Virus record (IMG/VR): IMGVR_UViG_3300023108_001277
Location: 1-64,000 of that record
DNA: 64,000 nucleotides
Direction: 5' to 3' (one strand)
Source: a virus
Every line of letters starts with the position of its first letter. Positions within the stretch are counted from its first letter, which is position 1. The notes below the pieces were generated by a model that saw only the letters and a program-made list of their open reading frames with translations, did not search any database and was not told where the DNA came from. The translations under genes and the position numbers were made by a program. Shown piece after piece: positions 1 through 64,000 of this stretch.

Positions 1-1815
1 CAATATAATAAGAGTCAACTAGAAAGACTAATTAGTCAGTTCTGTACAAATCTTACAGCAAAAGCAAGAGCAGGTAAGATTGATCCTGTAATTGGTCGAG
101 GCAAAGAAATTGAAGAAACTGTACTAATCCTTGCACGTAGACAAAAAGCAAATGTAATGTTGGTTGGTGATCCTGGCGTAGGTAAAACTGCTATTGCTGA
201 AGGACTTGCGGTTGAAATCGTAAATGATAATGTACCAGAGTTTATTAAGGATAGTACTGTTTATGCTCTTGACATTGGTGCTCTAGTAGCAGGTAGCAAG
301 TACAGAGGTGACTTTGAAGAACGTCTTAAAATGGTCATTAATGCACTTGAAAAGAAAAAGAATTCAATTCTGTTTATTGACGAAGCACACATGATGAGTG
401 GTGCAGGTGCTGGTGGCCAAGGACAAGCAAATGATATGGCTAATATGCTAAAGCCTGCATTAAGTAAAGGAACAATTAAAGTTGTTGCTTCAACTACTTG
501 GGAAGAATTCCGTAAACACTTTGAAAAGGATCGTGCATTGATGCGTAGGTTCCAACGTGTCACAGTTGACGAGCCAGATGAAGAAACTTCAATTGATATT
601 CTTAAAGGTATTAAGAAATATTACGAAAAACATCACAATGTTAAGATTACACAAAAAGCAATTGAAAATGCTGTTAAGTATTCTGTAAAGTATATGGCTG
701 ATAAAAAGTTGCCAGACAAAGCAATTGATGTTATTGACCGTGCTGGTGCTAGATTTAAAATACTAGACAAAAAAGAAGGAACAGTTGATCACGACGAAAT
801 TGTATTTGAAATTTCTAAAATGACTGGATTACCTTTAGAACAAGTTGCGGCAAAAGACAGTGAAAATATGCGTGACCTTGAAGGTGGTATGAAAACGCAA
901 GTATTTGGACAAGACGAAGCAATTGATAGTTTGCTTGACAAAATTTATATTGCTCAAGCAGGTTTGAAATCGCTTAACAAGCCTGTCGGCTCGTTCTTGT
1001 TTGTAGGGCCAACTGGTTGTGGTAAAACAGAAACAGCAAAAGTTTTAGCCAAAGAAATGGGAACACAACTTGTACGTTTTGATATGAGTGAGTTTCAAGA
1101 AAAACATTCTGTTGCTAAGTTTATTGGTGCACCTCCAGGCTATGTAGGCTTTGAAGAAGACGCTGGTCAACTTATTACTAAATTGCAAGAACATCCTAAC
1201 TGTATTTTACTGTTAGATGAAATTGAAAAAGCACATAGAGATGTTTCTAATGTATTACTAGGACTTATGGACAATGGATTTGTCACAGGTTCAAATGGTA
1301 AAAAAGCAGATGCTCGTAATGCTGTTGTTATTATGACATCTAACTTAGGTGCTAGAGATATGGAAAAGAACGGCGTTGGTTTTGGTAGCCTCGAACGTGA
1401 AGGCGAAGATGATGATGCAGTAAATGATTTCTTTGCACCAGAGTTTCGTAATAGACTTGATGGCATTATTAAGTTTGGAAAACTTGATAAAAGAACTTCA
1501 GGACTTATTGTTGATAAGTTTATTAAAGAAACAAACGACCTTGTTAAAGACAAAGGAATTTATATTATTCTAACAGATGCGGCAAAAGATCATTTGATCA
1601 AAAAAGGATTTAATCGTAAAATGGGTGCAAGACCATTACAACGTGTTATTGATCAAAGTATTAAAAAGCCAATGTCTAAAGAAGTTTTATTTGGCGATCT
1701 TGTAAGTGGGGGTAAAGTCACAGTTGACTACGTTGATGGAGAAATTAAATTGAATGTAGAAAACTTCACACTTGAACACAAGGAACAAGACGTTGAAAGC
1801 ACAACACACGAATAA
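1..1815 (+). CDS. clpA: ClpA-type AAA+ unfoldase, 5' end outside the window
   Basis: Hsp100/Clp ATPase that unfolds substrates and feeds them to a peptidase. The reading frame is open from base 1, so the N-domain and the start lie upstream. The visible part has the D1 Walker A GDPGVGKT (visible residues 56-63) and Walker B ILFIDEAH, then D2 with GPTGCGKT (about 336-343) and ILLLDEIEKAH, and the Clp C-terminal subdomain (FRNRLD, MGARPLQRVI). There is no ClpB-type middle coiled coil between D1 and D2, which favours ClpA. Where ClpA carries its ClpP-docking IGL loop this protein has VGF, consistent with docking to the phage ClpP at 24075. The stop overlaps the next gene. The family is certain; the partner is inferred. 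Confidence 0.92.
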   Translation, partial: QYNKSQLERLISQFCTNLTAKARAGKIDPVIGRGKEIEETVLILARRQKANVMLVGDPGVGKTAIAEGLAVEIVNDNVPEFIKDSTVYALDIGALVAGSKYRGDFEERLKMVINALEKKKNSILFIDEAHMMSGAGAGGQGQANDMANMLKPALSKGTIKVVASTTWEEFRKHFEKDRALMRRFQRVTVDEPDEETSIDILKGIKKYYEKHHNVKITQKAIENAVKYSVKYMADKKLPDKAIDVIDRAGARFKILDKKEGTVDHDEIVFEISKMTGLPLEQVAAKDSENMRDLEGGMKTQVFGQDEAIDSLLDKIYIAQAGLKSLNKPVGSFLFVGPTGCGKTETAKVLAKEMGTQLVRFDMSEFQEKHSVAKFIGAPPGYVGFEEDAGQLITKLQEHPNCILLLDEIEKAHRDVSNVLLGLMDNGFVTGSNGKKADARNAVVIMTSNLGARDMEKNGVGFGSLEREGEDDDAVNDFFAPEFRNRLDGIIKFGKLDKRTSGLIVDKFIKETNDLVKDKGIYIILTDAAKDHLIKKGFNRKMGARPLQRVIDQSIKKPMSKEVLFGDLVSGGKVTVDYVDGEIKLNVENFTLEHKEQDVESTTHE

Positions 1816-2503
1816 ACTGTTCTTTAACAAATACCTTTACAAAGCAACTGTGTATTGCCCACGCATTGCTTTTATAAGATATCCCAAAGACAAAGTTTTT
1901 TCTGCATTAACTAAATCTGAAAATTTTAACGAGTTTTTAGCCAAAGGCGGAAATACTCTTAAAAATAGATGGGACCAAACCCGTCCTAAAGATATGTGGG
2001 AAAATAGATTTACAATATACAAGATTATGCAAATGCGTGAAAAACTGTATTCTCAAAATACAGAATTTACAATGCGTTTGGAAACAAGTCATTGCGGATT
2101 TTATCTAAATGATAAAGATTTGTTTGATGATATTTGTAAACAGTTTAAAGATATTGTAGTAGATATTTCATGGCCTACAGATGAAAAACACGGAACTTAC
2201 TTGTTGAATAATCCTACACATGAAATTGTTAACAATTATCCGCACGGCAAATATCGCTATCGTATTAATTTAAGAAATAAATTCTTAAGCAGTGATGTCA
2301 GACAAGGATTTAAAGATTGGATTAAAAATTATCCTGATTTGGAAATTACTGATATAACATTAAATTCAATCAAAAACGGTGGGTATGATTTAAATGGTAA
2401 ATTTTTATACTCGACAAATAAAGATATTATGTTATTATTACAAATGTATCTAAGCGATGCGGTTAAAAGCATCACAGAATTCAAACTAAGAAAGGAACTT
2501 TGA
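1793..2503 (+). CDS. conserved phage protein of unknown function
   Basis: A protein of about 236 residues, rich in aromatic and basic residues, with no motif I can assign. The start is not an ATG. Two in-frame TTG codons occur at 1772 and 1793, both inside the end of clpA. The TTG at 1793 is preceded by AAGGA with an 8-base spacer, so I prefer it; an ATG start would cut off much of the protein. Its stop overlaps the start of the next gene (TGATG), so it is probably co-translated with its neighbours. Function unknown. Confidence 0.7.
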   Translation: MKAQHTNKLFFNKYLYKATVYCPRIAFIRYPKDKVFSALTKSENFNEFLAKGGNTLKNRWDQTRPKDMWENRFTIYKIMQMREKLYSQNTEFTMRLETSHCGFYLNDKDLFDDICKQFKDIVVDISWPTDEKHGTYLLNNPTHEIVNNYPHGKYRYRINLRNKFLSSDVRQGFKDWIKNYPDLEITDITLNSIKNGGYDLNGKFLYSTNKDIMLLLQMYLSDAVKSITEFKLRKEL

Positions 2504-2784
2504 TGCAAAAAGAAAACATAGTACGAGAACTAATTAAACGAAACGTTATTACCGAAGGAACAAATGTTCATGCTGTTGTGACAGCAAGTGGATTAGGTGG
2601 TCAACCAATTAGAATCCAAAAGCAAGTTTTGATTGGAAACTTAGGTCATACATCTGCAAAAGGTTGGGATCGCTGTGATGCTGGTAAAGATCACTTATAT
2701 AAAGTAAATTACAGTGATATTAATCTAATTGAGGGCATGGAAATTGCTAGAATGGCCCAGGCATATAAAATCAAAATCAAATAA
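2503..2784 (+). CDS. small conserved protein, unknown function
   Basis: A protein of 93 residues starting at the ATG that overlaps the preceding TGA stop. A TTG three bases upstream is in frame but adds only one residue. It has an N-terminal amphipathic helix (VRELIKRNV) and a glycine-rich central part ending in a lysine-rich tail. There are no membrane segments or catalytic motifs. It sits in a run of overlapping genes downstream of clpA. Function unknown. Confidence 0.7.
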   Translation: MQKENIVRELIKRNVITEGTNVHAVVTASGLGGQPIRIQKQVLIGNLGHTSAKGWDRCDAGKDHLYKVNYSDINLIEGMEIARMAQAYKIKIK

Positions 2785-2795
2785 ATAAAAGTACT

Positions 2796-3484: not shown

Positions 3485-3518
3485 TAGTCATTTTGGTAAA
3501 ATTAACCAACAGTTGTAG

Positions 3519-3550: not shown

Positions 3551-3556
3551 ATATGT

Positions 3557-3580: not shown

Positions 3581-3605
3581 TTATTAAATGTCAATAGGAG
3601 AAAAC

Positions 3606-3875: not shown

Positions 3876-3890
3876 TTAAACTTGAGGTAT

Positions 3891-14358: not shown

Positions 14359-17031
14359 ATGAGTTATGTAGATGCTCTGTGGGACAGAGACAAAGATATT
14401 ATCAAAGTCGTTGAACGTAATAAAAACGGCGAAAGAGATTTCCGAGAATATCCAGCAAGATATCAATTCTATTATAAAGATCCTCGTGGTAAGCACAAGT
14501 CTACTATGGGCGATACAGTTAGTAGAGTAGTATGTAAAAGTTGGAAAGACTTCCTTAAAGAACAAAAAATTAACAAACATCGCGGACTATTTGAAGCAGA
14601 TGTTAATCCTGTATATCGATTGCTTGAAGAAAATTATTTAGGTATCGATGCTCCAACACTACACGTTGCGTTTTTCGATATTGAGGTTGACTTTGATCCT
14701 GAACGTGGTTATAGTTCACCTGAAGATCCATTTACAGCCATTACAGCAATTACAGTACACTTACAATGGTTGAATAGTCTTATTACATTAGCACTTCCTC
14801 CAAAAGGTATGAGCATGGAAGATGCTAAATTTGCTGTAAAAGATTTTGATAATACACACTTGTTTGAAAGTGAAGCAGAAATGCTTGACACGTTCTTAGA
14901 CTTAATACAAGACGCAGATATCTTAAGTGGTTGGAACAGTGAAGGTTATGATATTCCTTACACAGTTAACCGTATTACTCGTGTACTTTCAAAAGAAGAT
15001 ACAAAGCGATTTTGCTTGTGGGATCAATATCCAAAGAAAAGAACTTATGAAAAGTTTGGCCGTGAGCAAGAAACATACGACCTTGTAGGAAGACAACACT
15101 TAGATAGTTTAGAATTATATCGTAAGTACACATACGAAGAACGCCACACATATCGACTAGATGCTATTGGTGAAATGGAAGTAGGCGAACGTAAAACTGT
15201 TTACGAAGGCACACTTGATCAGTTATACAACAATGACTTTAAAACATTCATCGAATATAACAGGCAAGACGTTGCACTACTTGATAAACTTGACAAAAAG
15301 TTAAAGTTTATTGATCTTGCAAACGAACTTGCACACGCAAACACTGTATTGTTGCCAACAACAATGGGTGCTGTTGCTGTGACAGAACAAGCAATTATTA
15401 ACGAAGCACACCATAGAGGTTTTGTTGTTCCTAATAGAGTACACAGAGAGCCAGGTTCAGAGCCTGCGGCTGGTGCGTATGTTGCATATCCTAAAAAAGG
15501 ATTGCACGATTGGATCGGCTCAATGGACTTGAACTCACTGTATCCATCTGTTATTAGATCACTTAATATGGATCCAGCAACTGTTGTAGGACAACTGAAG
15601 CCAGAATATACTGAAGAAATGGTACGTAATGAAATGACTCTTAAGAAAAAGTCATTTGCGTCAGCGTGGGAAGGTCGCTTTGGAAGTCTTGAATATGAGT
15701 TTGTCATGGAAGAACGTAAAGACAAACAAATTACTGTTGTATGGGAAAACGGTGAAGAAGATGTAATGAGTGCGGCAGAAGTTTATAGATTAATATTTGA
15801 AAGTAATCAGCCGTGGATGTTAAGTGCTAACGGTACTATCTTTACTACAGAATATGATGGTATTATTCCAGGACTGTTAAAGCGTTGGTATGCAGAACGT
15901 AAAGAAATGCAGGCAAAGAAACGCCAAGCACAAGAAGCAGGAAATAAAGTTGAAGAAGCATTTTGGGATAAACGACAATTGGTTAAGAAGATTAATCTTA
16001 ACTCTCTTTATGGTGCTATTCTTAATCCTGGTTGTCGCTTTTTTGATCCACGTATTGGGCAGAGTACTACACTAACAGGTAGAGCCATTGTTAAACATAT
16101 GTCATCAAGAGTTAATGAAATTATTACAGGTGATTACGATCACGTAGGCAAAGCAATTATTTACGGTGATACTGACTCTTGTTATTTTAGTGCTTACACA
16201 AGTTTACGTCCTGAAATTGAAAAAGGCGATATTCCGTGGGATAAAGATAGTATCATTGCACTATATGATCAAATTTGTGACGAAGCAAACAAATCGTTTC
16301 CACAGTTTATGAGTGATGCGTTTCATTGTCCTAAACCAAGAAGCACAGGTGTTATTGCCGCTGGTAGAGAAGTTGTTGGTGAAAAAGGATTATTCATCAC
16401 AAAGAAACGTTATGCAATTCTTATCTATGATAATGAAGGTGCAAGAATGGACGTTGACGGTAAACCAGGTAAAGTAAAAGCAATGGGTCTTGATCTTAAA
16501 CGTAGTGATACTCCTGTGTTTATGCAGGACTTTTTAAGTGAGATATTATTGGCTGTGCTAACTGGTGCCCAAGAACCAGAAATTCTTGATAAAATTACAG
16601 ACTTCCGCACACAATTTAAAGCAAGACCTGGTTGGGAAAAGGGTTCTCCAAAACGTGCAAACAACATCACAGACTATCTTGCTAAAGAAAGAAAATTTGG
16701 TAAAGTTAATATGCCTGGTCACGTAAGAGCAAGTATTAACTGGAACAAACTAAAGGAGATGAACGGTGACAACTATTCAATGAATATCGTTGATGGTATG
16801 AAAGTTATCGTTTGTAAACTAAAGAACAATCCAATGGGATATACCTCGGTTGCATATCCTACAGACGAACTAAGAATACCACCCTGGTTTCAAGAACTTC
16901 CGTTTAACGATGACGAAATGGAATCAGTTATTATTGATAACAAACTAGGCAACTTGTTAGGCGTTTTGGATTGGGATATTAAATCAACCGAACAGAAGAA
17001 TACATTCAACAATTTATTTGACTTTGAATGA
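14359..17031 (+). CDS. 43: family B DNA polymerase (T4 gp43 type)
   Basis: Replicative DNA polymerase of 890 residues, close to T4 gp43 (898). The exonuclease motif I is FFDIEVDF (about residue 103). The exonuclease domain also holds GWNSEGYDIPY (Exo II region) and FIEYNRQDVALLDKL (Exo III). Polymerase motifs follow: DLNSLYPSVI (motif A, about 391), KKINLNSLYG (motif B, about 543) and YGDTDS (motif C, about 602). It is a single uninterrupted gene with no intein or split. A GGAG site precedes it. Its 3' end carries the promoter of the clamp gene. Confidence 0.97.
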   Translation: MSYVDALWDRDKDIIKVVERNKNGERDFREYPARYQFYYKDPRGKHKSTMGDTVSRVVCKSWKDFLKEQKINKHRGLFEADVNPVYRLLEENYLGIDAPTLHVAFFDIEVDFDPERGYSSPEDPFTAITAITVHLQWLNSLITLALPPKGMSMEDAKFAVKDFDNTHLFESEAEMLDTFLDLIQDADILSGWNSEGYDIPYTVNRITRVLSKEDTKRFCLWDQYPKKRTYEKFGREQETYDLVGRQHLDSLELYRKYTYEERHTYRLDAIGEMEVGERKTVYEGTLDQLYNNDFKTFIEYNRQDVALLDKLDKKLKFIDLANELAHANTVLLPTTMGAVAVTEQAIINEAHHRGFVVPNRVHREPGSEPAAGAYVAYPKKGLHDWIGSMDLNSLYPSVIRSLNMDPATVVGQLKPEYTEEMVRNEMTLKKKSFASAWEGRFGSLEYEFVMEERKDKQITVVWENGEEDVMSAAEVYRLIFESNQPWMLSANGTIFTTEYDGIIPGLLKRWYAERKEMQAKKRQAQEAGNKVEEAFWDKRQLVKKINLNSLYGAILNPGCRFFDPRIGQSTTLTGRAIVKHMSSRVNEIITGDYDHVGKAIIYGDTDSCYFSAYTSLRPEIEKGDIPWDKDSIIALYDQICDEANKSFPQFMSDAFHCPKPRSTGVIAAGREVVGEKGLFITKKRYAILIYDNEGARMDVDGKPGKVKAMGLDLKRSDTPVFMQDFLSEILLAVLTGAQEPEILDKITDFRTQFKARPGWEKGSPKRANNITDYLAKERKFGKVNMPGHVRASINWNKLKEMNGDNYSMNIVDGMKVIVCKLKNNPMGYTSVAYPTDELRIPPWFQELPFNDDEMESVIIDNKLGNLLGVLDWDIKSTEQKNTFNNLFDFE

Positions 17032-17811: not shown

Positions 17812-19269
17812 TTGAGAACTGACTTAACAGCAGAACAAAAGGACTACGCAATATATCTTCCGGCACTTAGTGGCTTCTATGCTACGTTTATTGGTAAGCA
17901 ACGTCGCGAAGAATATGTAGATAAGTCACGTATTCCTTTTCCTAATAACGATATGGAAGGTCTTAATTGGCTTAATCGTCAAAAAGGTATCTTTCAATAT
18001 CATTGGACATTATATTCGGCAGGACACGCAGAACTTGATATAAACAAGGACGCACCTAAAGAACTTATGGTGCGTGAACGTGATCGTGAGAATAGTTGGC
18101 TGTTAGGTGATTCAGGTGGTTTCCAGATTGGTAAAGGCGTATGGGAAGGTGATTGGAAAGATCCTAACTGTCCTAAAGCACAAAAGAAACGTGAGCAAGT
18201 TCTTGCGTGGATGGATGCTTATATGGACTATGGTATGATCCTTGATATTCCTGCTTGGGTATCTAGATCTGAAGCAGGTCAAAAAGCAACAGGCATTACA
18301 ACTTATCAAGAAGCAGTAAATGCCACACGCATTAACAACGACTACTTTATGAAGAATCGTACAGGTGCTTGTAAATTCTTAAACGTACTACAAGGTGAAA
18401 ATCATGCTGATGCAGAAGATTGGTATCAGCAGATGAAGGACTACTGTGATCCTAAGAAATATCCAGACACACACTTTAATGGATGGTCGATGGGTGGACA
18501 AAATATGTGTGACGTACACCTTGTTCTTAAAAGATTAGTAGCATTACGTTTTGATGGATTGCTTGAAAAAGGAATACATGACTTTATGCACTTCTTAGGC
18601 ACAAGTAAACTAGAGTGGGCAACGCTCTTAACTGATATTCAAAGAGCAGTTCGCAAGTATCACAATGAAAACTTTACGATTACATTTGACTGTGCTAGTC
18701 CGTTCCTAGCAACAGCAAATGGTCAAATCTATTGTGAACTTGAAACACAAGACAGAAGTAAATGGGTATACAGAATGGTACCCAGCATTGACGACAAGGC
18801 TTTAGCAACTGATACAACACCATTTGGTCAAGCATTTGTACGTGAAGGCAAACACACTAGTTTTAAAGATTCGCCAATTACACAAGGACTAAGTGCAAAA
18901 GATATTTGTATCTATGCGCCAGGCGACCTAAATAAAATAGGCAAAGAAGGAAAAACATCATGGGATAGTTTTTCTTATGCGATCCAAATGGGTCATAACG
19001 TATGGAGTCACATTAATGCAGTACAAGAAGCCAACAGAGAATATGACGCAGGTAGAATTCCAGCGATGCTTGTCGAAGAACGTTTTGACAGGTTATTTTT
19101 TAAAGATGTTGTGGAAGCGATATTTGCAACTGACAACAGAGACGAAGCGAATGCGATCATAGAAGAGTTTAGTAGATTCTGGATGTCAATTATCGGCACT
19201 AGGGGAGCAACGGGTAAAAAAACTGTAAACGCAAGTACGCAATATGCGAACTTATTTGAGGAGGCATAA
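17812..19269 (+). CDS. dpdA: DpdA-like DNA guanine transglycosylase
   Basis: A 485-residue protein of the tRNA-guanine transglycosylase superfamily. DSGGFQ (about residues 99-104) is the nucleophile-side signature. ILDIPAW follows (about 143-149), and VLQGENHADAEDWY and GWSMGGQ correspond to TGT substrate-binding loops. Phage members of this size (DpdA) exchange guanine in DNA for a 7-deazaguanine precursor, and FolE and QueE in the same window support that role over tRNA modification. The start is TTG, with GGAGA 7 bases upstream; no ATG fits the N-terminus. I cannot assign the DpdA subtype. Confidence 0.82.
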   Translation: MRTDLTAEQKDYAIYLPALSGFYATFIGKQRREEYVDKSRIPFPNNDMEGLNWLNRQKGIFQYHWTLYSAGHAELDINKDAPKELMVRERDRENSWLLGDSGGFQIGKGVWEGDWKDPNCPKAQKKREQVLAWMDAYMDYGMILDIPAWVSRSEAGQKATGITTYQEAVNATRINNDYFMKNRTGACKFLNVLQGENHADAEDWYQQMKDYCDPKKYPDTHFNGWSMGGQNMCDVHLVLKRLVALRFDGLLEKGIHDFMHFLGTSKLEWATLLTDIQRAVRKYHNENFTITFDCASPFLATANGQIYCELETQDRSKWVYRMVPSIDDKALATDTTPFGQAFVREGKHTSFKDSPITQGLSAKDICIYAPGDLNKIGKEGKTSWDSFSYAIQMGHNVWSHINAVQEANREYDAGRIPAMLVEERFDRLFFKDVVEAIFATDNRDEANAIIEEFSRFWMSIIGTRGATGKKTVNASTQYANLFEEA

Positions 19270-21797: not shown

Positions 21798-22484
21798 ATG
21801 AAAAAATATGCTGAAATAACGCAAAGATTAAAAGAAGCAAACAAACGATATTGGGCAGGCGACAATATTTCTGCTTTTATCCAAGATGGTGAAAAAGAAG
21901 AATTAATTAATGAAGCCGCTGAAAAGTTTGAAGGTGTACTAGATGCACTAATTATTGATCGTCATAACGATCCTAACTCACAAGGTACAGCACGACGACT
22001 TGCTAAAATGTATTACAATGAACTTATGCAAGGTCGTTATGATACTATTCCGCCAGCAACTGCATTTCCAAACGACGGCGAAGATGCATATAAAGGTATG
22101 CTTGTAGTTCGTTCTGAACTTAAAAGTGTTTGTTCACATCACCACCAACCAGTGACTGGTGTAGCATACATTGGTGTTATTCCTAATGGTAAAGTTATTG
22201 GAGTTTCTAAATATACACGCATTGCACAATGGTGTGCTAGACGTGGTACACTACAAGAAGAACTTGCAAATGATATTGCACGTGAAATTGAAAAGGCTAC
22301 AGATGCAAAACACTTAGGTGTTTACATTCAAGCAACACACGGTTGTTGTGAGAACCGTGGCATTATGGCACATAGTTCACTTACACAAACAACTGTACTA
22401 AAAGGTAGTTTTAAAGATGATCCAGGAACTAAAAAAGAGTTTATGGATAATATTAAATTACAACAGGAATTTGCTCCGAGGTAA
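21798..22484 (+). CDS. folE: GTP cyclohydrolase I
   Basis: A 228-residue GTP cyclohydrolase I that opens GTP to dihydroneopterin triphosphate, the first step to 7-deazaguanines. Zinc and active-site motifs are SVCSHHHQP (about residues 110-118), KYTRIAQWCARR and THGCCENRG (about 179-187). Length and motif order are canonical. A GGAG site precedes the ATG. It works with QueD, QueE and QueC in preQ0 synthesis; QueC is not in the window. Confidence 0.95.
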   Translation: MKKYAEITQRLKEANKRYWAGDNISAFIQDGEKEELINEAAEKFEGVLDALIIDRHNDPNSQGTARRLAKMYYNELMQGRYDTIPPATAFPNDGEDAYKGMLVVRSELKSVCSHHHQPVTGVAYIGVIPNGKVIGVSKYTRIAQWCARRGTLQEELANDIAREIEKATDAKHLGVYIQATHGCCENRGIMAHSSLTQTTVLKGSFKDDPGTKKEFMDNIKLQQEFAPR

Positions 22485-26595: not shown

Positions 26596-27489
26596 ATGAA
26601 ATTAAGATATAGTGAAGCATTTTATAGTGTGCAAGGAGAAGGTCGCTTTGTAGGTGTACCTTCCGTCTTTTTACGTACCTTTGGTTGTAATTTTCGTTGT
26701 ATGAACTTTGGTTTAGACAAGCATCCTAACAGAGCAGAGAAGTTAGAACAAGGTATTAAATATAATCCAGAAGTTAAAGCATTGCTAGATGACGGTATTT
26801 TAGACAAGATAAATAAGTTCGAGGATTTGCCTATTGTTCACACAGGCTGTGATACGTATGCAAGTATATATCCTGAATTTAAAAAATATATGAAAGACCA
26901 TACAGTTGACGAAGTAGTTGATTATGTATTAGGTCTTACTCCACAAGGTAAGTGGACAATGGATAATGGACAAGATGTTCATTTTATTTTAACTGGTGGT
27001 GAACCTTTGCTAGGGTGGCAGAGGTTATACATGGATCTATTTAAACACCCTCGTATGGAGGACTTAAAAAATGTCACGTTTGAAACAAACACAACACAAA
27101 CTCTTAGAGATGATTTCAGAGAGTGGCTCGACAACGAAAGATCATTTCATATCACTTGGTCGTGCAGTCCAAAACTTTCCGTTAGCGGAGAGCCTTGGGA
27201 TACTGCTATCAAGCCTGATATTGCTAGGCAGTACTACGATGTACCTAATAGTAGTATGTATTTCAAGTTTGTTGTGGCTACCAAAGAAGATGTGGATGAA
27301 GTTTCCAAAGCCGTTGAAGCGTACCGTAGCGAAGGAATCGATGTTCCAGTCTATGTTATGCCGCTTGGGGGTAGGTCGGAAGAATACCAACTCAACACTA
27401 GAGGAGTCGCAACATTGGCAATGGAGCGAGGTTGGCGCTATACACCCAGACTACACGTCGACATCTTCGGCAACGCCTGGGGCACCTGA
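26596..27489 (+). CDS. queE: QueE-like radical SAM enzyme with displaced third cluster cysteine
   Basis: 7-carboxy-7-deazaguanine synthase-like protein of 297 residues. FYSVQGEGRFVGVPSVFLR, ILTGGEPLL, the Lys/Ser-containing SCSPKLS and the C-terminal LHVDIFGNAWG are QueE hallmarks. The cluster motif is unusual: C31 and C35 (CNFRC) are followed by Phe where the third Cys should be. The expected Cys-Asp-Thr appears at C85 (GCDTYAS) after about 50 inserted residues. If the cluster forms, the motif is C-x3-C-x49-C. The region after about 27080 also shows more C-ending codons than neighbours. Confidence 0.85.
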   Translation: MKLRYSEAFYSVQGEGRFVGVPSVFLRTFGCNFRCMNFGLDKHPNRAEKLEQGIKYNPEVKALLDDGILDKINKFEDLPIVHTGCDTYASIYPEFKKYMKDHTVDEVVDYVLGLTPQGKWTMDNGQDVHFILTGGEPLLGWQRLYMDLFKHPRMEDLKNVTFETNTTQTLRDDFREWLDNERSFHITWSCSPKLSVSGEPWDTAIKPDIARQYYDVPNSSMYFKFVVATKEDVDEVSKAVEAYRSEGIDVPVYVMPLGGRSEEYQLNTRGVATLAMERGWRYTPRLHVDIFGNAWGT

Positions 27490-56800: not shown

Positions 56801-59800
56801 TTGATCATATATCACATCGCCAAATTGACTCTTATCATCAAAGACTACAATGTGTTCCCATTGTACAAGATTTAACACAGCAAAGAAAATACCTCGTTGT
56901 GTATTCTTTGTTGTTATATTAAACTTGCCTGAACCTCTAACAATACTAATATTGTCTTTTGGTAGTGGAGTTCCGTTAGCACTTAAGATACTGTATTCAT
57001 AAAAACTGTTTAAAACATTGTCAACAGTAGCATACTTGTATTCAAAACTTAAACTATCTGCAAAAGGACTTAGTGAAATAACACTGCCTTCTGCCCAATT
57101 CTGTGTTGTCCAATACAAAAACTCTCTACCAGATAAATCCCAGTCTTGAATTGTTGCTGTTTCACGTTGGAATATATCAAATACAAAACCTTGTTCTTTT
57201 AGGTATTCTTGATATCCTAAAATAACGTCATATACCTCTTGTGCTCTAGGATATACTGTTCCATAAGACACTTCAGTTATTTTAGATTCAAATGCTTTTG
57301 CTTTTGCAACTTCTGTTCCGCCAGTGACCGGCAACTCTCCAAGTTTTGTAAACTTGCTATTATCAAAAGTTTCAGTTGATGTATGGTTAATTGAAACTCT
57401 ATAATATTCTCCACCAAATTCTACAATCTGTCCTTTTCCATAAAACTTCTCTGAATCCCAAATAACAAATTTTGCTTGTTTGCCACCTACATTTACAGCA
57501 ATATCATTCTTTCCATGCTTAGGCTTATAAATGCTAAACCAAGGTTTAATATTATCATAACCTCTAACTAAAAATCCTTTTGCTGTTTTTTCAACAATAA
57601 TACCTGAAACTCTTACATTTCTTATAGGATTACTTTTTCTTAATGTAAGTTGGTAGTTTTCACTTGGTAAGAAAATACTATTATCTGCTGTATTAGGATT
57701 TGAACTTTCTGCTAATACACGCAATCTATTTTTGTTTGCAAATCCACCTAACTTGTATGTTAAGTTGCTTGATGTATTTGTAAGATAATCGTAAAATGTT
57801 TCTTTTACATCTTTATCAAAACTTTTAATGTATTCTACAATAGGAACATGATAACCTAAACCTAAGAAACGTTCATTGTTAAATCTTAAGTCTTTAATTT
57901 TTGCTTCTTTAAGACTAAAGATTTTTCCATTATCTGCATAAACAACGTTTCCACTTGGTGTAATTTCGTTTTGGTTAACATCGAATAAACTACCAAAGTA
58001 TTGTGCTGGTTTTGTTAAGCCTACTGCTACTTGTAATGCAAACGGAAACCAACTTGACTTTCTCCAAGCAGTTTCTGCTGGGCCTTCGTCACCAAATTTC
58101 CAAGCATTTTTAATTTCTGTAATAAAAATTGCTTTTACAATATTGATTTTGCTAGGATCAATCAACTCACCGTATTCGTCAACAGGTAAATTTTTAGACA
58201 AATTAGGTCTTGCATATGCAGGATAAATTTTTGTTCCGTTAGGATCTCTAACTAAACCGCGTTCAATGTCGTTCCATAACAAGTTATTACCACTAGTATA
58301 TGGTGCTTCACCATACTGTTCGTCCCACCATGTAGGTTTAAGAGTAATACCTAACATTTCCCATGGATGTGTGTGAGGGCGATCTGTATCAAAATAATCT
58401 TTATAAATTGCTCTCCAGTTTCCTGGAAGTTTTTGATCTTGTAAATTGATCATTGTGTTGAAGTTATATGTAAATGCGTCACCGCTCTGAGAAACATTGT
58501 TAGTTTCAAAATCTACATCAAATAAACTCTTCCAATAACCAAAATCAGTCCTTAAAACTTTATTAAATTCGTCTCTGGTATAAGCATCTGGTCTATAATG
58601 TCCAGGTTGTTCCTTAAGAATATCAAAAACATCACGATTGTATTTTACTTTAAGGTTATTATAAATTCTTTTTTCTAATTCAAGAATTAATTCATCTCTT
58701 TCGTCGTTATATGCTTTTGTTATTGATCCGTCGTGTCCTTGGATTACCTTTGTAGGATTAATATAACTGCTATCTACAAAAATTTCTGGAACATATGCTG
58801 GATATAAACCTAATTTAGTAGGAGAATGAGGAATAACATTACCTGTTGTATCATAATCGTTAACCTTAACTTTGTCTCCAACTGATAATTCTTTTTTAAT
58901 TGTGACAGTATTGTCTACTGCATCAAACTCATAGTCTGCATCTAAATAAAGTTGTACATCATTTAGGTAAACATAAACTGCACGATCACTTACTTTTGTT
59001 GTATCAAATGCATTATTAATTGCAAAAACATTTTGAGTTCCGTTTTTAACTTCAAATTCTAAACGTTCAACTTTTCTACCAAAGCCAGCCATGTCAGAAT
59101 AGAAGTACGGAGACGTTGTAATCTTATTTGAACCTAATTCGTATAAAATTTTATCAACATCATTTGCAACACTAGTTGTTCTTTCAATTTCTCCAGCCTT
59201 TTCAATAAACTGATCTTTAAAGAAGTTGTAATCATTTGCGTTTTTACGCATTGAATTAACAAAGTTTAAATTTTCTTGAACTAAAAACATAATTGCAGGT
59301 AAAACACTGCCTTTGTGTTTTACATATCTGCTACCATCTAAATGAATCTCGCTAATATCACGAGAGTTATTAGGACCTACAGAATTACCTGTAATAAAAC
59401 TATTGTTTTGGAATATAGTTTTAAAGTGATCACTAACACTACCTAATGTAAATGTTTTAAGATCATTGTTTTCACTATTATTAGTTAAGTTAATAGGCGG
59501 TTCATAAAACCCATTTTCGTTTGGTTTTTGATTTGTTTTAATTTTTAAAGTAATTCGTGTTCCTTGAGGAATTATAGAATTAAATTTAAGTTCATAAATT
59601 TGTCTTTCTCTATCAATAACCTTTTCAAAATCTGTTGTTTCTTTATATGTCTTACCATTATATTCAACTACAATGTCTAGATCATACTTATGAGGTTGAT
59701 TAATTGCGTTAACTGCAACAGTGTCAGTGTCAATTACAGTATCGACTACTTGTAAAATACGTTGAACAGTTTGTTTTCCTTTAACAAGTTCCCATCCACT

Positions 59801-61735
59801 AATAAACTTATCTTTAGCATAATCTTTTACTAGTCCACTTGCAGTATCAACTGTCTTTTGTGTTGTTCCTTCTTGGTAAGTAAACAACCCGTCGTCCCAA
59901 TTAAACTCAAATGTAATATCACCAACATTATTAATGTTTTGATATGCAATAGGAAATCCTAAAACAGGGTCATCTGATCCTGTTCCAATCTTATAACTTG
60001 CAAGTTTATTCCCATTAAATGTAGATGAAAAGTAATAATCTGTATCAGCAAAACTATTACCTGCACTATCATAAAGATCAAACAAAGGACTTTGATTTAA
60101 TATTGTCTTTTGTTGACCATTAATCCAACTAGTACCGTCAAAGTGCCAACTTGACCCTTGGTGTGTTTCGCCCGATGTTGCAACAACACTGTCATTAACT
60201 AACGGTTCATATACTTCTTCAAGATGTACTCTTTTAACACCGTTATGTTCAACAAAGTCAACTTCGTATACTTTACCTTTTACTGTAATGTCAGGATCTG
60301 CATTAAAAATAACACGCATACCTTTACGTAAAAGAACTTCGTCTACGTGGTATCCAAATGACCCTTCAACATCACTCATAGCATCTTTAGTATCAGTGTC
60401 AATTAAGTCAATATTACCAATACCATTAGTACCAAAGTTTACAAGTTTTAAGTTAGGTTTAAATTCAATAATAGGTCTTACTGCTCTATAATTTTCATCA
60501 AGCACAGGAGAAGTATTATTATACTCTGCACTTAATTCAATTACATCTTTATGTACCCATCTATTATACCGTGACCAAGGATTTTTATCCTTACTTGATC
60601 TATTAATTGTAATATATTCTGCTGTTAAAGGACTATTTTCTGTATCATCATAAGGAGTATCGTCAAACGGATCAACATCAAACTCATATTCTTCATTTTT
60701 AGCATAAAGTTCAGGAGTATCAAGTTCTGTTTCGTCAATTAAAACAATACTTTCGCCTACACCTTCAACATACCAATTTTTATTTCTGTATTTTGTTGGT
60801 AAAACATCTCCAACAAAATTAACTTTCATACCATTTGTTAACTGTACACCGTTTGCACTTTTAAATGTTGCCTTACTAATAATATCTTCTTCAACATCAA
60901 TACTTAAATCATCAGAGGTATTTCTAATTTCAAGTACACCTTGCATACTTTGATGATATTGACAAGCATAATAAAGCAAGTCTGGAGCATCAACTGGAAC
61001 TGTAAATGTAATTGTTCCTTGTTCAGCACCATTGTTTTCAACACCGTTGTTGTATTGGTCACCAATGCCTACTGTGTTGGCTGTTTTAATAAAGAAAGGA
61101 TGCCCTTGAGCATTTACTTTAAACTTATATGTGCCGCCTCTGTATAAAATTACTGTTGGGTTTTCACTAAACCCGTTTGGAGTAAACACAAATGAGTTTT
61201 CTCCGCTATTAGAAACTGAGTATTCGCTTTGTGTGTTTCCAGGATCGCCACTAATTGATACAGGATCTGGTCCTTGTGGCAACCAATAATACTGTCTGTA
61301 GTTGGCAAATTTATCAAAATCAAACAATGGATTCCATGCAAAGTAGTCTGCTTCAAACAATCTGTTATGATTGTCAGTTATTCCACCAAAGAAATCAATT
61401 TGATTAATTAAATCGTCGTATGTTCCTGTCCACTTATTTGAATTGTCAATAGGATTTTTTGTGACTGCTGACGGTAAGAAGTTATATTGACGTCTGTTTG
61501 CTGTTGGTTCTTGAATGTAAACATCAGTTGGTTTTGCATTTTCTGTATTTCTTGCGCCAACAAAACCATTTAGACGATCTAAGTTTCCTTTACTAATTAA
61601 CGCATCAACAGTTGCACCAAGAAACTTTCTATTAGTTTCTGTGCGAAAATACATAGGTAAAAGATCAGCACTATTACGCAACTTATCTTTGTTTTCTATG
61701 TTTACAGGCGTACCTTGTCTATCACTAAAAGCCAT
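47810..61735 (-). CDS. giant mosaic virion protein (4641 residues), downstream of gp6
   Basis: A single 13.9 kb frame. The start is AFSDRQGTPVNIENKDKL, then LPMYFRTETNRKFL as in large baseplate-region proteins of marine T4-like phages. Residues about 185-270 form a cupredoxin-like domain with possible type 1 copper ligands H212, C258, H261 and M264. About 2165-2540 hold repeated FG-GAP-like blades (GSSVAVSDTRMVVGAPG and similar). Many beta-sandwich repeats follow. About 3380-3560 is a YHYH domain (IYHYHSDPT, GYAFDGFPIYGPYG). It occupies the position of T4 gene 7, so a baseplate wedge or fibre role is likely. The late C-terminal part has further fibronectin-like repeats. Confidence 0.85.
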   Translation of the reverse strand: MAFSDRQGTPVNIENKDKLRNSADLLPMYFRTETNRKFLGATVDALISKGNLDRLNGFVGARNTENAKPTDVYIQEPTANRRQYNFLPSAVTKNPIDNSNKWTGTYDDLINQIDFFGGITDNHNRLFEADYFAWNPLFDFDKFANYRQYYWLPQGPDPVSISGDPGNTQSEYSVSNSGENSFVFTPNGFSENPTVILYRGGTYKFKVNAQGHPFFIKTANTVGIGDQYNNGVENNGAEQGTITFTVPVDAPDLLYYACQYHQSMQGVLEIRNTSDDLSIDVEEDIISKATFKSANGVQLTNGMKVNFVGDVLPTKYRNKNWYVEGVGESIVLIDETELDTPELYAKNEEYEFDVDPFDDTPYDDTENSPLTAEYITINRSSKDKNPWSRYNRWVHKDVIELSAEYNNTSPVLDENYRAVRPIIEFKPNLKLVNFGTNGIGNIDLIDTDTKDAMSDVEGSFGYHVDEVLLRKGMRVIFNADPDITVKGKVYEVDFVEHNGVKRVHLEEVYEPLVNDSVVATSGETHQGSSWHFDGTSWINGQQKTILNQSPLFDLYDSAGNSFADTDYYFSSTFNGNKLASYKIGTGSDDPVLGFPIAYQNINNVGDITFEFNWDDGLFTYQEGTTQKTVDTASGLVKDYAKDKFISGWELVKGKQTVQRILQVVDTVIDTDTVAVNAINQPHKYDLDIVVEYNGKTYKETTDFEKVIDRERQIYELKFNSIIPQGTRITLKIKTNQKPNENGFYEPPINLTNNSENNDLKTFTLGSVSDHFKTIFQNNSFITGNSVGPNNSRDISEIHLDGSRYVKHKGSVLPAIMFLVQENLNFVNSMRKNANDYNFFKDQFIEKAGEIERTTSVANDVDKILYELGSNKITTSPYFYSDMAGFGRKVERLEFEVKNGTQNVFAINNAFDTTKVSDRAVYVYLNDVQLYLDADYEFDAVDNTVTIKKELSVGDKVKVNDYDTTGNVIPHSPTKLGLYPAYVPEIFVDSSYINPTKVIQGHDGSITKAYNDERDELILELEKRIYNNLKVKYNRDVFDILKEQPGHYRPDAYTRDEFNKVLRTDFGYWKSLFDVDFETNNVSQSGDAFTYNFNTMINLQDQKLPGNWRAIYKDYFDTDRPHTHPWEMLGITLKPTWWDEQYGEAPYTSGNNLLWNDIERGLVRDPNGTKIYPAYARPNLSKNLPVDEYGELIDPSKINIVKAIFITEIKNAWKFGDEGPAETAWRKSSWFPFALQVAVGLTKPAQYFGSLFDVNQNEITPSGNVVYADNGKIFSLKEAKIKDLRFNNERFLGLGYHVPIVEYIKSFDKDVKETFYDYLTNTSSNLTYKLGGFANKNRLRVLAESSNPNTADNSIFLPSENYQLTLRKSNPIRNVRVSGIIVEKTAKGFLVRGYDNIKPWFSIYKPKHGKNDIAVNVGGKQAKFVIWDSEKFYGKGQIVEFGGEYYRVSINHTSTETFDNSKFTKLGELPVTGGTEVAKAKAFESKITEVSYGTVYPRAQEVYDVILGYQEYLKEQGFVFDIFQRETATIQDWDLSGREFLYWTTQNWAEGSVISLSPFADSLSFEYKYATVDNVLNSFYEYSILSANGTPLPKDNISIVRGSGKFNITTKNTQRGIFFAVLNLVQWEHIVVFDDKSQFGDVIYDQEAGYRQKRIKLVGFKTSEWDGDYVSPGFVFDEAVVADYIDGKDYNLGDVVRHKSKFYSAKKFLPATKAFNFSEWVFIGDKPVAELLPNLDYKASSYEDFYSLESENFDSETTKLSQHLTGYQKRLYLDNMVRDDIAQYKFYSGFIKEKGTRNSLEKLNRLTIDGTSTDLSITDNWAIKIGSLGSGSTTKELEVVLSEKDNVENPQAYEFVTAKTSNSDTNTIELLSSDLTLKPDNFSVDVWKNFDTTQDGVSLNSIQKIPTAGFARLDDVDHTVFNSEDLLTDTTLPTLNEGASVWVARDKSDTWNIYRLTANRARLVQTEDNQVSVDNGTITLHTNIPHGLKEGDTIVIKQFDNQINGTHLVNSVLGLTSFTITTELLTITLAEDSASGTILELLPVRVSSPDKINDIKDVAEFAEGTKIWADDVSDGTWRVFEKTKAYAENQVQLIASDAKTYASTVKYGDQGRTIVVGNPGQTVEGAVLILRRKFNTDISTLEGSSGFNISESLVDQLVSPSVPAGLGSSLSLSQTTNTLVAGAPYASFVKTITDPEKPRFNTVGLTGTASSYTKQGVVKLSTYNSLTNIYDPTHIIASPRPANNEEFGSSVAVSDTRMVVGAPGRANNAGGVYVYTKGTNGWDLNAEWELTAPSDHPNDRFGEKLTASIDMSILAVSARNKELESDSTTVDTGAVYIYYWDGTGYNLIQTIDATTVDTLSKSDLFGSSLSLSRNGDVLVIGAPLNDDDSINQGAVYVFERQTQGDSTVGYTYKQKLTSPTNLSGEQFGSNVSVNPDGLSFAVAGKGGSNSAITLFDNNETSFDAKSTSFVDTETGTGSVYTFTKLGTTYVFGQKLSSNDLQSNDAFGTGLDFSTTSLYVGAPYFTYNGNDTGMLFVYQKEASAGWNTLRQQDSLTDPFSVEKVMTYRTDSQTVVDFLETIDPIKGKIPYIAETEISYKSAKDPAIYTTSDRGLNVDPDTNWGATHVGQIWWDLSTVRYVWYEQGDVEFRKNNWGGLFPGSTIDIYEWVESDLSPEEWNNISDTTEGIAAGFSGQSKYDNNTFVLKRVYDTATNNFVNRYYYWVKNNVLLPQRVSTQIAVGLSEKIAVDTRRLPANEIANVIADPKGYGIKSLQLLDTNSFSLTNIKTSLSDTDVSLNVQYKKVKTNIPNHNSWLLLDEQQRDKIDNPLLIKKLYDSLVGFDDAGNTVPDSQLPVQKKYGLQIRPRQSMFVNRLGALETLFTYTNNLLAKSRIVDEKDLSGLFESDPQPTLISGRYDVKVDEFNDLDNIKTQDLEQATATATIVNGRVKSVEITNPGFGYVNPPNIEITTEGWGAKFQSTIDAQGRVTSIEVLKEGRDYTNGAIRIRPFKVLVDADSTANNYWTMYEWNIASEEWIRTNTQTYDVNRFWKYKDYVVEGFDVDSIIDFKVAEPYLLKTITPATGQLVEVANVGDGNKIVLRKVEANGTWNNNYDILFKANSTIEFDSSIYDYTGLNFGFAGAENFDINLYDEQPTQETRVILEQLYSNIFVDDLKYAWNEFLFTAIRYAISEQTFTDWAFKTSLISVKNNLGGFTKKINYNLDDPGNIQSYVEEIKPYSVTIKDMITSYNNREPSSIFTTDFDLPSRYNETKEEFEVLNETSEDITTEPFNQWFENYKFNVDSIEIAEAGDGYTQRPIVVISGGREDKPAIVQTTPFRVLTTTDYDNLYVYVNTTSVPDHFFNTTNVVSQNLVYQIPRFPSVPEVKVPTPLGAIGVAVNGVSIFNPSSAVTELLNGTTYTVNAVFSHEELGIDDGSGHPQEDGIYHYHSDPTFMYTKDPENHSPILGYAFDGFPIYGPYGFIATNDKTVKLIKSSYKLRTTPRADGSMPTGRYNEDYEFVQGHGDLDENNGRFIQTPEYPQGTYAYFITVDEQDDGTFEPAFPYIVGPHYHGNPLLPNGNGKMPQSGNINATATAYISRNKVNKIVVENPGAGYVSAPTVTITGGGNTTSTAKAVAILENNKVRTNKTELKFDRIGSTGIIADEEYVDTYTAKSGQVVYKLTYLPTLDKRDFVISVNNEAIFVENFDVSIETLTDKTYKKQVGHVVLKTLPKERSTVTITYKKNVKLMNAIDRINYFYEPTAGMPGKDPAQLMYGIEYPGVKVQGLDFGVSVGWDGLPWFSHGWDTFSGGNTDYAFRADGVATSFTLPYAPKQDEKINVYFDGVRQDPNNTPTIVGDGNTTAFTLNATPADGVLVVFRPEDSDGSVVPTDVNNLDTIIQGGNLSYSTATGQTPEEISLQGDGFVTPDTSHAPEEVVPGQIFDSLAMKVYNAPADGSPIIDITRHWGDGSETEFTFNKYPGTTDSIIVTVGPSNPTPTDTATRSSSYKVLGTDYTVDYANKKITLTSAPTDGQLVTITTLNVGGSEILEKEDYVDSGDSTIEFVLTSKYEDVKSAFVTVNGVKQDYAIYEDTDSGSAKIVLTNPPNDMTDAVTQITALSGLEKTYSEVVTDVHEVQSNDGLTYDLSQVPGNIEPFHAMVVVEANGRRLRAPDTIYYVANGVTLDYLASQDPEYPAFSLALGELEVHQNGVRLEPISDYQFNTATNLVTFYQGRLQAGDVIAITVLRGHDYEIRKHDDDDSSNAGYIKIINNSAEDSTGVGEGTILKITSFTNHDANLMRKEVFAGNTGGNYKLSRKAIDVAYVWVELNNIPLVADADYKILDDGYTVYIDNKFSQKSTDRVVITSFSEDRTHDGIGFTIFEDMLNRHHFKRISKQDTTVLTTKLLLGDTEISVQDASFFDTPSPEKRVPGVIFVGKERIEFYKINGNKLSQITRGTLGTGIAEHPVGTQVFDAGPTQTVPYKESLSVYEIIVRDGLPNGKSVHVLETINFSGSVNAHDQVEVYVGGRKLQKPTVSANPITKHDPSIAYDSEETNSLGVASDVVQLPEFTIEPVEDSTAKGYYKLILRDEPENGTEIKVVQKQGHVWYTAGVSTASNGVTLQRAESPQANFLLERSSGLPIINIKE
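47821..47828 (-). promoter_or_regulatory. possible T4-late-like element (AATAAATA)
   Basis: On the minus strand, 14 bases before the 219-residue gene. It is closer than usual, so a transcript would have a very short leader. Low confidence. Confidence 0.25.
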
Positions 61736-61744
61736 TTATCTACC

Positions 61745-64000
61745 TTAATAACTGCTTGTTGTAGTACTACTACTTGTCGATACAGAAACTGAACCAGTAC
61801 TGTCAACTGATGTCACAACATTTCCATCTGCTTTCAAATTATTTGCTGTAATTTGATCAATAATTTCAATGTTGTCTACGCTGGCTGTACTAATAAAAAT
61901 TTCATCTGCACGACATTTAATTTGATATAAACTTCCAAATACTTGTGATCCACTTCTTGGAACAATTACAAAGTTTGCAACATCTGGTGCTGTTTGTTGT
62001 TGCACATAAGTTGCTAACTCTGTAAAATAAAAAGTTTCACCAAAGTCCCAATTATCAATAGCAAAGAAATCATTTATTGCACTAATAACTTTACTTTTAA
62101 TTTCATTATCACTAATTGTGCTATTATCGCTTTTAACAATCTTAAATGTTGCTTGTAATGAAGCATCAGCATTTACACCAAATAGTGGTCTATAATTAAC
62201 AGCATGATATATAATCTCGTCGCTAATAGATTTTACTCCATCTAGCACACCTGCTAATTCAAGTCTTAAATTTGCACTTGTTGGTTTGACAGGCTCGATA
62301 CCACCGTTGTTAACAAATATTCTATAATCTTCATCATATGCTCTTGTTAAAACATACAAGTCAATAATATTTGTTTTTCCAGGATCAAGACGTCTATCGT
62401 TTTGTGCATTATGATTGTATTGGAATTTTAACTCGTCTCTTCCAAATCGAGCAAAGTATGAAGTATCTAATTGTAATGTACCTGATGTAGCATCATATGA
62501 TTTAACAACATCTTCTCTACTGTCATAAAAATAAAATAGTTGGCCGTTTTCAATTCCTGTAAATGACGATACACTTGCTTCTTTATCAAAAATTAAAAAT
62601 TGCGAAGCAGGAATTTTAGTTGTTGTTGATATTCCGTCATTTGTTGTTTTTTGAAAAAATACAAACTTGTCATTGTACCCTCTTGTATCTAAAGAATCAG
62701 GTGCAACGATTTGCTCAAAACTATCAGGATCATCAATCATTCCGTCATCGTCTGAATCGTAAAAATTAATTCTAATTTTATTTGTTTCTTCAAAACCGTC
62801 GTCATTTAAAATGCTACCAACAATCTCCCACTGGTAGTCTTTTTCTAAAATAGTATCTAACAGTGGATCTTCGTTAATTTTTAAAACTTTAATTTGGTCT
62901 TTAATAACTTTTCCTGTTTCACTATCATATTTTTTAATACCTTTATCAACAAAGAACTGGATTAGTTGTTCGCTTTCGAATCTATAATCCATTCCTCTAT
63001 AGGTAATAGTATAAGTTTCACCGTCTGTTTCAAATAACACAAACCAACTTTTATCTAGTTTAGATCCTGTTATATCGCCTTGGCGTTCTAAACTGAAATC
63101 ATCTTTTGTGTTTAGATTAGCGTTTACAATAATTTTCCATTCTTTGTTGTTTTGATCATATCTTAAACCAAACGTTTTGTAGTTGAAAATTAAATCAACT
63201 AATTGTAATTCTAAATCTGTTGGAAAGTTTGTCACAATACTTGGAACTACTAAACTAGGAACAGCAAGTGAAGGAATGTTTTCGCTAAACACAATTGGAC
63301 CAGTACCGTCGTCAAGTTCACCTTGACCGCCGTTAGATCCGTCGCCACTTACTTGAACTACTTTTGCCCAAATATAGTTTAAAGAATTTTTTGTTTTAGT
63401 CGTTGTTAGTGTTCCATCACTTAAGAAGTACTTGCCTTCTGGTGGAACAAACTTAACAAGTGTATCTGGTGTAATAAATTTAAAGTTATTTGTTGTAAAT
63501 GTACCTACAGTAATTGGAGATCCATTAATTATATTTCTAAAATAACCTGTACTGTCAGTTCCTGATTCTGTAGATCTTACCCAATCAATATTAATATCAC
63601 TAGTAATAATTCTAGGGAATTTATCATAATAAAATGCCTTAGTTGGTAAACTATCAACAATAGGCTCAATAGTATTTCTAATAACACCTAAGATATCATT
63701 ACGTGTTTGAAATGTAAAATTAAAATCACTATCGTAAGGATTTTTGTAAATGATACCATCATCTGCCATTAAATTAACAGCACTATATTTTCCTGTTGGA
63801 TCTTGGATTTCAAACTGTCTAGAAATACCCGAACTAACTCTGTTTACTGCTTTTACTTTAATAACAGTATTACTTGCTGTAAGAGGATATGAATTATAAT
63901 CCTCTCCAGTAATCATTCTATTTTGTGTGTAATAACTTTGCGGTGCATTAGTTCTAATATCTTCAGTAGTTTCTGTTGCACTTGCATTTGTTAAACTTGC
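61745..64000 (-). CDS. 6: baseplate wedge protein gp6, 5' end outside the window
   Basis: 751 residues are visible; the frame stays open to the window edge, so the N-terminus lies beyond 64000. An internal Met at 63916 is not the start: the preceding residues (TTEDIRTNAPQSYYTQNR) continue the gp6 pattern, and ITGEDYNSYPL follows, as in T4-like gp6. The part seen is already longer than T4 gp6 (660 residues). It builds the ring of baseplate wedges. A serine/threonine-rich tail ends the protein. Confidence 0.88.
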   Translation of the reverse strand, partial: ASLTNASATETTEDIRTNAPQSYYTQNRMITGEDYNSYPLTASNTVIKVKAVNRVSSGISRQFEIQDPTGKYSAVNLMADDGIIYKNPYDSDFNFTFQTRNDILGVIRNTIEPIVDSLPTKAFYYDKFPRIITSDINIDWVRSTESGTDSTGYFRNIINGSPITVGTFTTNNFKFITPDTLVKFVPPEGKYFLSDGTLTTTKTKNSLNYIWAKVVQVSGDGSNGGQGELDDGTGPIVFSENIPSLAVPSLVVPSIVTNFPTDLELQLVDLIFNYKTFGLRYDQNNKEWKIIVNANLNTKDDFSLERQGDITGSKLDKSWFVLFETDGETYTITYRGMDYRFESEQLIQFFVDKGIKKYDSETGKVIKDQIKVLKINEDPLLDTILEKDYQWEIVGSILNDDGFEETNKIRINFYDSDDDGMIDDPDSFEQIVAPDSLDTRGYNDKFVFFQKTTNDGISTTTKIPASQFLIFDKEASVSSFTGIENGQLFYFYDSREDVVKSYDATSGTLQLDTSYFARFGRDELKFQYNHNAQNDRRLDPGKTNIIDLYVLTRAYDEDYRIFVNNGGIEPVKPTSANLRLELAGVLDGVKSISDEIIYHAVNYRPLFGVNADASLQATFKIVKSDNSTISDNEIKSKVISAINDFFAIDNWDFGETFYFTELATYVQQQTAPDVANFVIVPRSGSQVFGSLYQIKCRADEIFISTASVDNIEIIDQITANNLKADGNVVTSVDSTGSVSVSTSSSTTTSSY

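Follow-up and report, generated by a model that had tools for sequence, protein, structure and literature searches.

The stretch of DNA analysed here, 64,000 bases long and called the window, is part of the 103,536-bp virus record IMGVR_UViG_3300023108_001277 (positions 1 to 64,000), which belongs to a phage whose polymerase, capsid and terminase mark it as T4-like. The pentamers GTTAC and GTAAC are absent from it, together with several other short palindromes. Most words purged in this phage and its relatives are ordinary type II restriction sites minus any version of the site in which a G is followed by a purine (GR; in what follows R is a purine, Y a pyrimidine, W is A or T, and S is G or C). 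The explanation we favor, with a probability of roughly 0.78 and on the basis of sequence, is that restriction by presumed hosts selects against the sites and that a putative, context-limited guanine modification of the phage spares the rest. The broader statement, that an uncultured phage clade splits its sites between modification at GA and GGY (GR) and deletion of the bare type II sites, also appears likely, if held a little less firmly.

Missing Words in the Window and in the Related Contig

The original prediction, made from the letters of the window, was that GTTAC and GTAAC do not occur in it. The count agrees: both stand at 0, where 121.8 copies of the pair are expected from the observed tetramers and trimer. 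None of the 353 TTAC is preceded by G and none of the 379 GTAA is extended to GTAAC, and GTGAC (72) and GTCAC (44) are frequent. In window frames of at least 100 amino acids, valine before ACN codons is written GTC (48 times) or GTG (15), never GTT or GTA, the two codons that otherwise make up most of the valine codons (1123 of 1286). The codon pairs GGT-TAC, CGT-TAC, AGT-TAC and AGT-AAC are likewise at 0 in the window, compared with 23, 6, 15 and 10 in the relative G014. The same relative carries GTWAC in frames 0, 1 and 2 (174, 133 and 22 copies), and the contig G001, described below, has none in any frame: the avoidance acts at the DNA level, as had been proposed.

Other words, overlooked at that time, are equally absent. 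When all tetramers are counted, AGCT (0 vs. 140.1 expected) is the sole one near such depletion in the window, and GCAGC/GCTGC (GCWGC; 0 vs. 61.2) is the only other pentamer pair. GTWAC, AGCT and GCWGC are also at 0 in the remaining 39.5 kb of the record, where 71.5 GTWAC are expected, and RCATGY is at 0 vs. 41.6 across the whole record.

1..64000, no strand: window without GTWAC, AGCT and GCWGC, with RCATGY missing across the record (counts, and a synonymous-codon null on G001)

The record is 99.988% identical to part of G001, a phage contig of 181,867 bp. In this contig, GTWAC is again at 0, for an expectation of 473 (order-2 Markov model) or 336 (order-3). Synonymous codons were also shuffled in 143 of its genes (40 shuffles), which gives 358 GTWAC (standard deviation 12; lowest of the 40, 331) and, as observed/expected, 0/500 for AGCT, 0/161 for GCWGC and 0/101 for RCATGY. 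These shuffles rule out a codon-level cause. Under the same null, GTSAC is raised in G001 (317 vs. 179) and not in G014, G012 or G009; GCSGC is raised in all four.

The word had been described as a non-palindromic 5-mer. This has to be corrected: GTTAC and GTAAC are mutual reverse complements and form one degenerate palindrome, GTWAC, like GCWGC. Its loss fits type II restriction-site avoidance, as a palindrome far below both the composition and the codon expectation. A signal reserved for use elsewhere, the other possibility raised at first, is unsupported, as the word is found nowhere in the 182-kb contig. Type I bipartite targets were scanned as 3+N4-9+4 and 3+N1-9+3 motifs in G001 and as 3+N4-8+4 motifs in the pooled sequences, and were rejected: the most depleted among those shown are all still present.

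Lineage Pattern of the Losses

Large phages of Sinorhizobium, Agrobacterium, Vibrio and Pseudomonas rank highest among the named relatives, with 43-70% protein identity. Two genes of the window were used to collect further relatives:

14359..17031, plus strand: family B DNA polymerase, marker for finding relatives (phrog_262, E 5.3e-196; 72 loci)
17812..19269, plus strand: protein with the fold of tRNA-guanine transglycosylases (TGT), candidate DNA-guanine transglycosylase (DpdA-like), 485 amino acids, TTG start (predicted structure, VIA-align, DSGGFQ)

None of the 72 polymerase loci contains AGCT or GCWGC, but GTWAC is missing only from five, those with 100% polymerase identity. Alignment of G001 with the relative G004 covers 54 GTWAC sites of the latter. 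Since G001 lacks the word, all 54 are necessarily lost there; the informative part is the controls, with 65 of 118 GATC and 53 of 111 GTAC sites retained. Most often, a single-step change turns the first base from G to A or the central A/T into G/C. Outgroup phages have the words missing here at counts close to or higher than expected; for GTWAC, 41-kb stretches give (observed/expected) 82/63 in Phosso, 82/83 in PA5oct and 87/82 in Vibrio phage 2.275.O. Other lineages miss other words: GCGC in G014 and G013, RCTWAGY in G009, G006 and G015.

The rule on GR was written down before new contigs were collected through the gene at 17812-19269 (two scans, at least 80 loci each, 80 kept). From 123 candidate stretches (13 large contigs plus new loci above 9 kb), 74 were kept and 49 dropped for overlap, both strands considered. 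The resulting set of 74 contigs (1.59 Mb) includes 64 new ones that share no sequence with the records in which the rule was found; as all 74 carry the TGT-fold gene, the set has no gene-free control group. For each of AGCT, GCWGC, RCATGY and RCTWAGY, some lineages are purged and others are not. GTWAC, on the other hand, is unpurged in 73 contigs and purged in the source species alone. On a FastTree tree of the gene, the state changes at least 7 times for AGCT, 10 for GCWGC, 10 for RCATGY and 8 for RCTWAGY, which points to changing hosts rather than to a fixed trait of the phage. Relatives that keep GTWAC presumably had no exposure to its enzyme.

A sequence-specific host defence, already suggested at the outset, is best supported because the loss is independent of frame, is confined to one species and has other type II-like palindromes alongside. 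What does not stand is the kind of word: it is palindromic, as the site of a type II enzyme would be. No GTDB genome contig encoding the polymerase was found in the search for a host, and the PA5oct and Vibrio homologues, used as queries in two scans, yielded no contig.

Three further depletions were seen. Among the tabulated loci, TGCA is nearly absent from L167 (3/43) and L168 (4/47). GTAC is purged in L188, alone among the contigs tested. The non-palindromic AGCCC/GGGCT is depleted clade-wide, with 46 copies vs. 263 expected in a 995-kb pool.

Sites with a G Followed by a Purine Are Spared

GTWAC is GTNAC without GTGAC and GTCAC, and GCWGC, RCATGY, RCTWAGY and RCGCGY are GCNGC, CATG, CTNAG and CGCG trimmed in the same way. 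Several of these are sites of familiar enzymes: NlaIII cuts CATG, DdeI CTNAG, Fnu4HI GCNGC and TseI GCWGC, as PstI does CTGCAG and AflII CTTAAG. A strand of a site with GR is called shielded below. In the pooled sequences, the contrast is clear between versions of one site (observed/expected): ACTGCAGT 0/10 vs. TCTGCAGA 11/11 and CCTGCAGG 22/18; ACAATTGT 0/31 and GCAATTGC 1/24 vs. TCAATTGA 44/29 and CCAATTGG 16/14; ACTTAAGT 0/12 vs. TCTTAAGA 15/12.

The base that follows the site shows the same. In five lineages chosen for their CATG purge, and with the other strand unshielded, CATG is followed by A in 295/275 cases, by G in 223/291, by C in 3/170 and by T in 1/282; the profile is flat in the four unpurged lineages used as control. 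For CTWAG, three lineages give A 60/58, G 22/29, C 0/26 and T 0/57. Thirteen lineages were then compared with a codon null, with the sites classed as unshielded, shielded on one strand or shielded on both. The respective values are 0/40, 3/107 and 73/59 for CTGCAG, which seems to require shielding on both strands; 1/109, 187/271 and 109/89 for CAATTG; and 0/98, 80/212 and 133/91 for CGCG. CTAG, an unpurged core in these lineages, has no such context split. Where the opposite strand is unshielded, survival (observed/expected) over four six-base sites amounts to 251/281 for GA, 74/86 for GGY, 23/72 for GGR and 18/380 for GC or GT. A context restricted to GA and GGC is too narrow, since GGT also shields.

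In the 64 new contigs, CATG is purged only if unshielded in 15 and unpurged in 49; for sites shielded on one strand, the 15 have 365/460 (observed/expected), and for those shielded on both, 131/201. CTWAG is purged only if unshielded in 13 (one strand 151/184, both 95/105) and unpurged in 45, and six contigs are too small for the test. As lineages were called purged by their unshielded class, the zero of that class is there by construction; the informative values are the survival in the other classes and the count of palindromes with GR inside. For the latter, palindromes of 4-5 bases were tested, 24 with GR inside and 24 without. Over all 74 contigs, those containing GR are purged in 0 of 1354 contig tests and those free of it in 83 of 1715; the new contigs alone give 0/1127 and 59/1475. 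GATC (74 tests), GGCC (74) and CCGG (48) are never purged. Beyond GTNAC, the same rule accounts for seven further sites: GCNGC, CATG, CTNAG, CGCG, CAATTG, CTTAAG and CTGCAG.

Two cores behave differently. CTAG is purged in L143, L148, L160, L161, L162 and L164, unlike the context-limited CATG and CTWAG; perhaps the putative mark on the last G does not impede the CTAG enzyme that these phages met. For GCGC, ten large relatives including G001 were pooled: AGCGCA (0/116) and TGCGCA (0/42) are missing and GGGCGC is rare (4/27). A mark just outside GCGC may block that enzyme.

Candidate Modification Genes

The protein encoded at 17812-19269 was annotated by its predicted structure. A first fold from 15 close sequences was useless (predicted local distance difference test, pLDDT, 40). 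A model from 40 sequences (id m26e1c7e27fc4) has a pLDDT of 74.6 and a predicted template modelling score of 0.77. In VIA-align, all 50 matches listed for this model are TGTs (best Z 18.1, root-mean-square deviation 4.7, 308 residues aligned), and the best Foldseek match is also a TGT (E 1.3e-6). Among viral models, the fold is matched by one protein from Vibrio phage nt-1, R9TGF0 (E 6.1e-8), possibly the published DpdA2, and by another from Achromobacter phage Motura. DSGGFQ is invariant in 18 of 18 homologues, to the most distant one aligned, and FDC..P is aligned in the comparison with E. coli Tgt; both are presumably catalytic motifs of TGTs.

By sequence, the protein has no match in Pfam (including the TGT family), PADLOC or NCBIfam, and one chance-level match in PHROG. 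A phmmer search against the PDB sequences retrieved no TGT, only four unrelated chains (E 0.0037 to 2). CAjan DpdA itself has no Pfam family match. Sequence relatives occur in 13 of 50,697 phage records (E 1e-5), all annotated as hypothetical protein. Two genes that may belong to the same pathway lie within 9 kb:

21798..22484, plus strand: GTP cyclohydrolase I (FolE), first step of preQ0 synthesis and also of folate synthesis (PF01227, E 4.9e-40)
26596..27489, plus strand: QueE-like radical S-adenosylmethionine protein, 7-carboxy-7-deazaguanine synthase-like (phrog_2076, E 1.3e-52)

FolE is present in 13 of the 14 records searched. The QueE-like protein matches five NCBIfam QueE models with E 2.5e-9 to 2.6e-7, all below the cut-offs. 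Outside the window, G001 encodes a Vut_1-family protein (PF02592, E 5.5e-24), the family of the preQ0 transporter YhhQ. Since QueC and QueD were not found, preQ0 would come from the host or by uptake, and the phage is not grouped with those encoding the full FolE, QueD, QueE and QueC pathway. In Vibrio phage 2.275.O, the homologue, annotated as hypothetical, lies within ~5 kb of genes for QueF, Vut_1, QueC and FolE (L135:33952-41146), possibly a 7-deazaguanine DNA-modification cluster. A phage methyltransferase as the shield was rejected: PF01555 was not found in 16 records, nor PF00145 in 14.

Proposed Mechanism and Alternative Explanations

Type II restriction enzymes of the hosts would exert selection on the genome of this T4-like phage. 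Its own modification would target a G whose next base is A or G, with GA and GGY as the best contexts, and would most likely consist of a 7-deazaguanine inserted by the predicted DpdA-like transglycosylase at 17812-19269. A restriction site containing such a modified G would be shielded and stay in the genome, and a site without a shielded G would be lost through point mutations until no copy persists. GTWAC, GCWGC, RCATGY, RCTWAGY and RCGCGY would be the unshielded parts of GTNAC, GCNGC, CATG, CTNAG and CGCG; AGCT, which never contains the shielding context, would be purged whole. The GTWAC purge of the source species would reflect exposure to a GTNAC (MaeIII-like) enzyme, preferred over a GTWAC enzyme because the same rule explains the seven other sites. 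GTNAC had been dismissed in the original prediction because of the frequent GTGAC and GTCAC. Both are indeed present, but both contain GA, the apparent self-protected context, so that the enzyme is likely specific for GTNAC.

The hosts could instead carry enzymes that natively read GTWAC, GCWGC, RCATGY, RCTWAGY, RCGCGY and so on, with phage modification irrelevant to the sparing. For GTWAC alone, this and shielding are indistinguishable, and GCWGC is the site of TseI. RCATGY is given as the site of NspI in PMC5567051, and PMC6286503 documents site avoidance alone as widespread. We consider such a set of enzymes unlikely, as the same odd flank, R before and Y after, would be needed at CATG, CTWAG, CGCG, CAATTG, CTTAAG and CTGCAG, and no methyltransferase paper naming GTWAC was found in a literature search. 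Although enzymes cutting GATC- and GGCC-type sites abound, palindromes containing GR were purged in 0 of the 1354 tests.

As to the shield itself, the complement of GR is YC, so that sequence cannot separate a modified C from a modified G. T4-like phages often modify cytosine. Cyanophage S-B43 is described in PMC12783734 as having a GC-context cytosine carboxymethylase. We regard a modified cytosine in YC context as very improbable here: neither PF00145 (C5-methylase) nor PF00303 (thymidylate synthase/hydroxymethylase) was found in the 14 records, and the genes present instead are those of the TGT-fold, FolE and QueE-like proteins. A modified guanine, probably written by the TGT-fold protein, is therefore preferred.

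That nucleases of the phage cut host DNA at the purged words, the phage losing these to avoid self-cutting, would suit the absence of AGCT and GCWGC from all 72 first-found loci and a small G001 protein with a weak HNH match, but it is scarcely credible given that AGCT is unpurged in 47 and GCWGC in 21 of the 74 contigs with the TGT-fold gene, that GTWAC is purged in just one species, that a palindromic set with turnover resembles host type II systems and, a weak point, that no restriction-enzyme gene was recognised in the part of the proteins that was family-searched.

Several observations weigh against host restriction combined with guanine shielding. The rule is graded: one shielded strand fails to save CTGCAG and only partly saves CGCG, and GGR shields poorly at the four six-base sites. 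In G015, the CATG purge extends to every context, as does that of CTAG in the 5 contigs where contexts are testable, and GCGC is kept only beside a G outside the site (GGCGC/GCGCC) in the ten pooled relatives. The contigs are related, so the tests are not independent. At the gene level, the Foldseek match has a TM-score of just 0.39 over the query, and hhalign is weak with E. coli Tgt (probability 14, E 0.0019) and negative with CAjan DpdA (probability 0.4). The Vut_1 gene was found in 4 of the 14 records, a set that includes many fragments, but not in the record to which the window belongs; QueC and QueD are each in 0 of 14. According to PMC5567051, the DNA of phage 9g is fully cut by TaqI (TCGA), its resistant sites have no bias in the surrounding bases, and it resists HindIII (AAGCTT), though 9g is stated there to have no HindIII site. 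In PMC8306585, dADG DNA is reported to be cleaved at GA/GGC sites.

Comparison with Known Systems

Site avoidance (PMC6286503) and protection by 7-deazaguanine (PMC6884629) are each already known. In the first (Rusinov et al. 2018), complete or near-complete loss of type II palindromes is reported for about one tenth of viral genomes; like the non-temperate phages there, the present one has wholly lost orthodox type II palindromes at the DNA level. The same text states that five coliphages with a DNA hydroxymethylase avoid 2.4% of host sites, compared with 55.8% in four relatives without it. In that one published comparison, modified phages hardly avoid sites, as if the two were alternatives. 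Here, modification and avoidance look complementary: sequence context would split the sites of one genome between them, with a boundary set by two or three bases. No such partition could be seen in the titles and abstracts listed by searches of a limited, open-licence literature.

The DNA modification with 7-deazaguanine by DpdA or DpdA2 is described for CAjan, 9g and Vibrio phage nt-1 (Hutinet et al. 2019, PMC6884629), and the reported target contexts of CAjan DpdA are GA and GGC (PMC8306585). The present phage resembles these systems in the predicted TGT fold, in its FolE, QueE-like and Vut_1 genes and in a context close to that of CAjan. It differs in the few sequence relatives of the protein, in the missing QueC and QueD and in a context, deduced from the surviving sites, that includes GGY and, weakly, GGR. 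Phage 9g DNA carries deoxyarchaeosine; per PMC5567051, it is cut completely by RsaI and Hpy166II, partly by HhaI, BstUI, MfeI and NspI, and not by BamHI or EcoRI.

The MaeIII restriction-modification system recognises GTNAC, according to PMC10113651, and taking the GA-containing GTGAC and GTCAC out of GTNAC leaves precisely the missing GTWAC. The present data revealed no such system. If the proposed mechanism holds, the modification context of a phage and the restriction repertoire of its uncultured hosts, GTNAC included, would be readable from assembled sequence, without native reads. It would also offer a route to further DNA-modifying transglycosylases.

Apart from these systems, the minus strand of the window contains, at 47810-61735, one open frame of 4641 amino acids.

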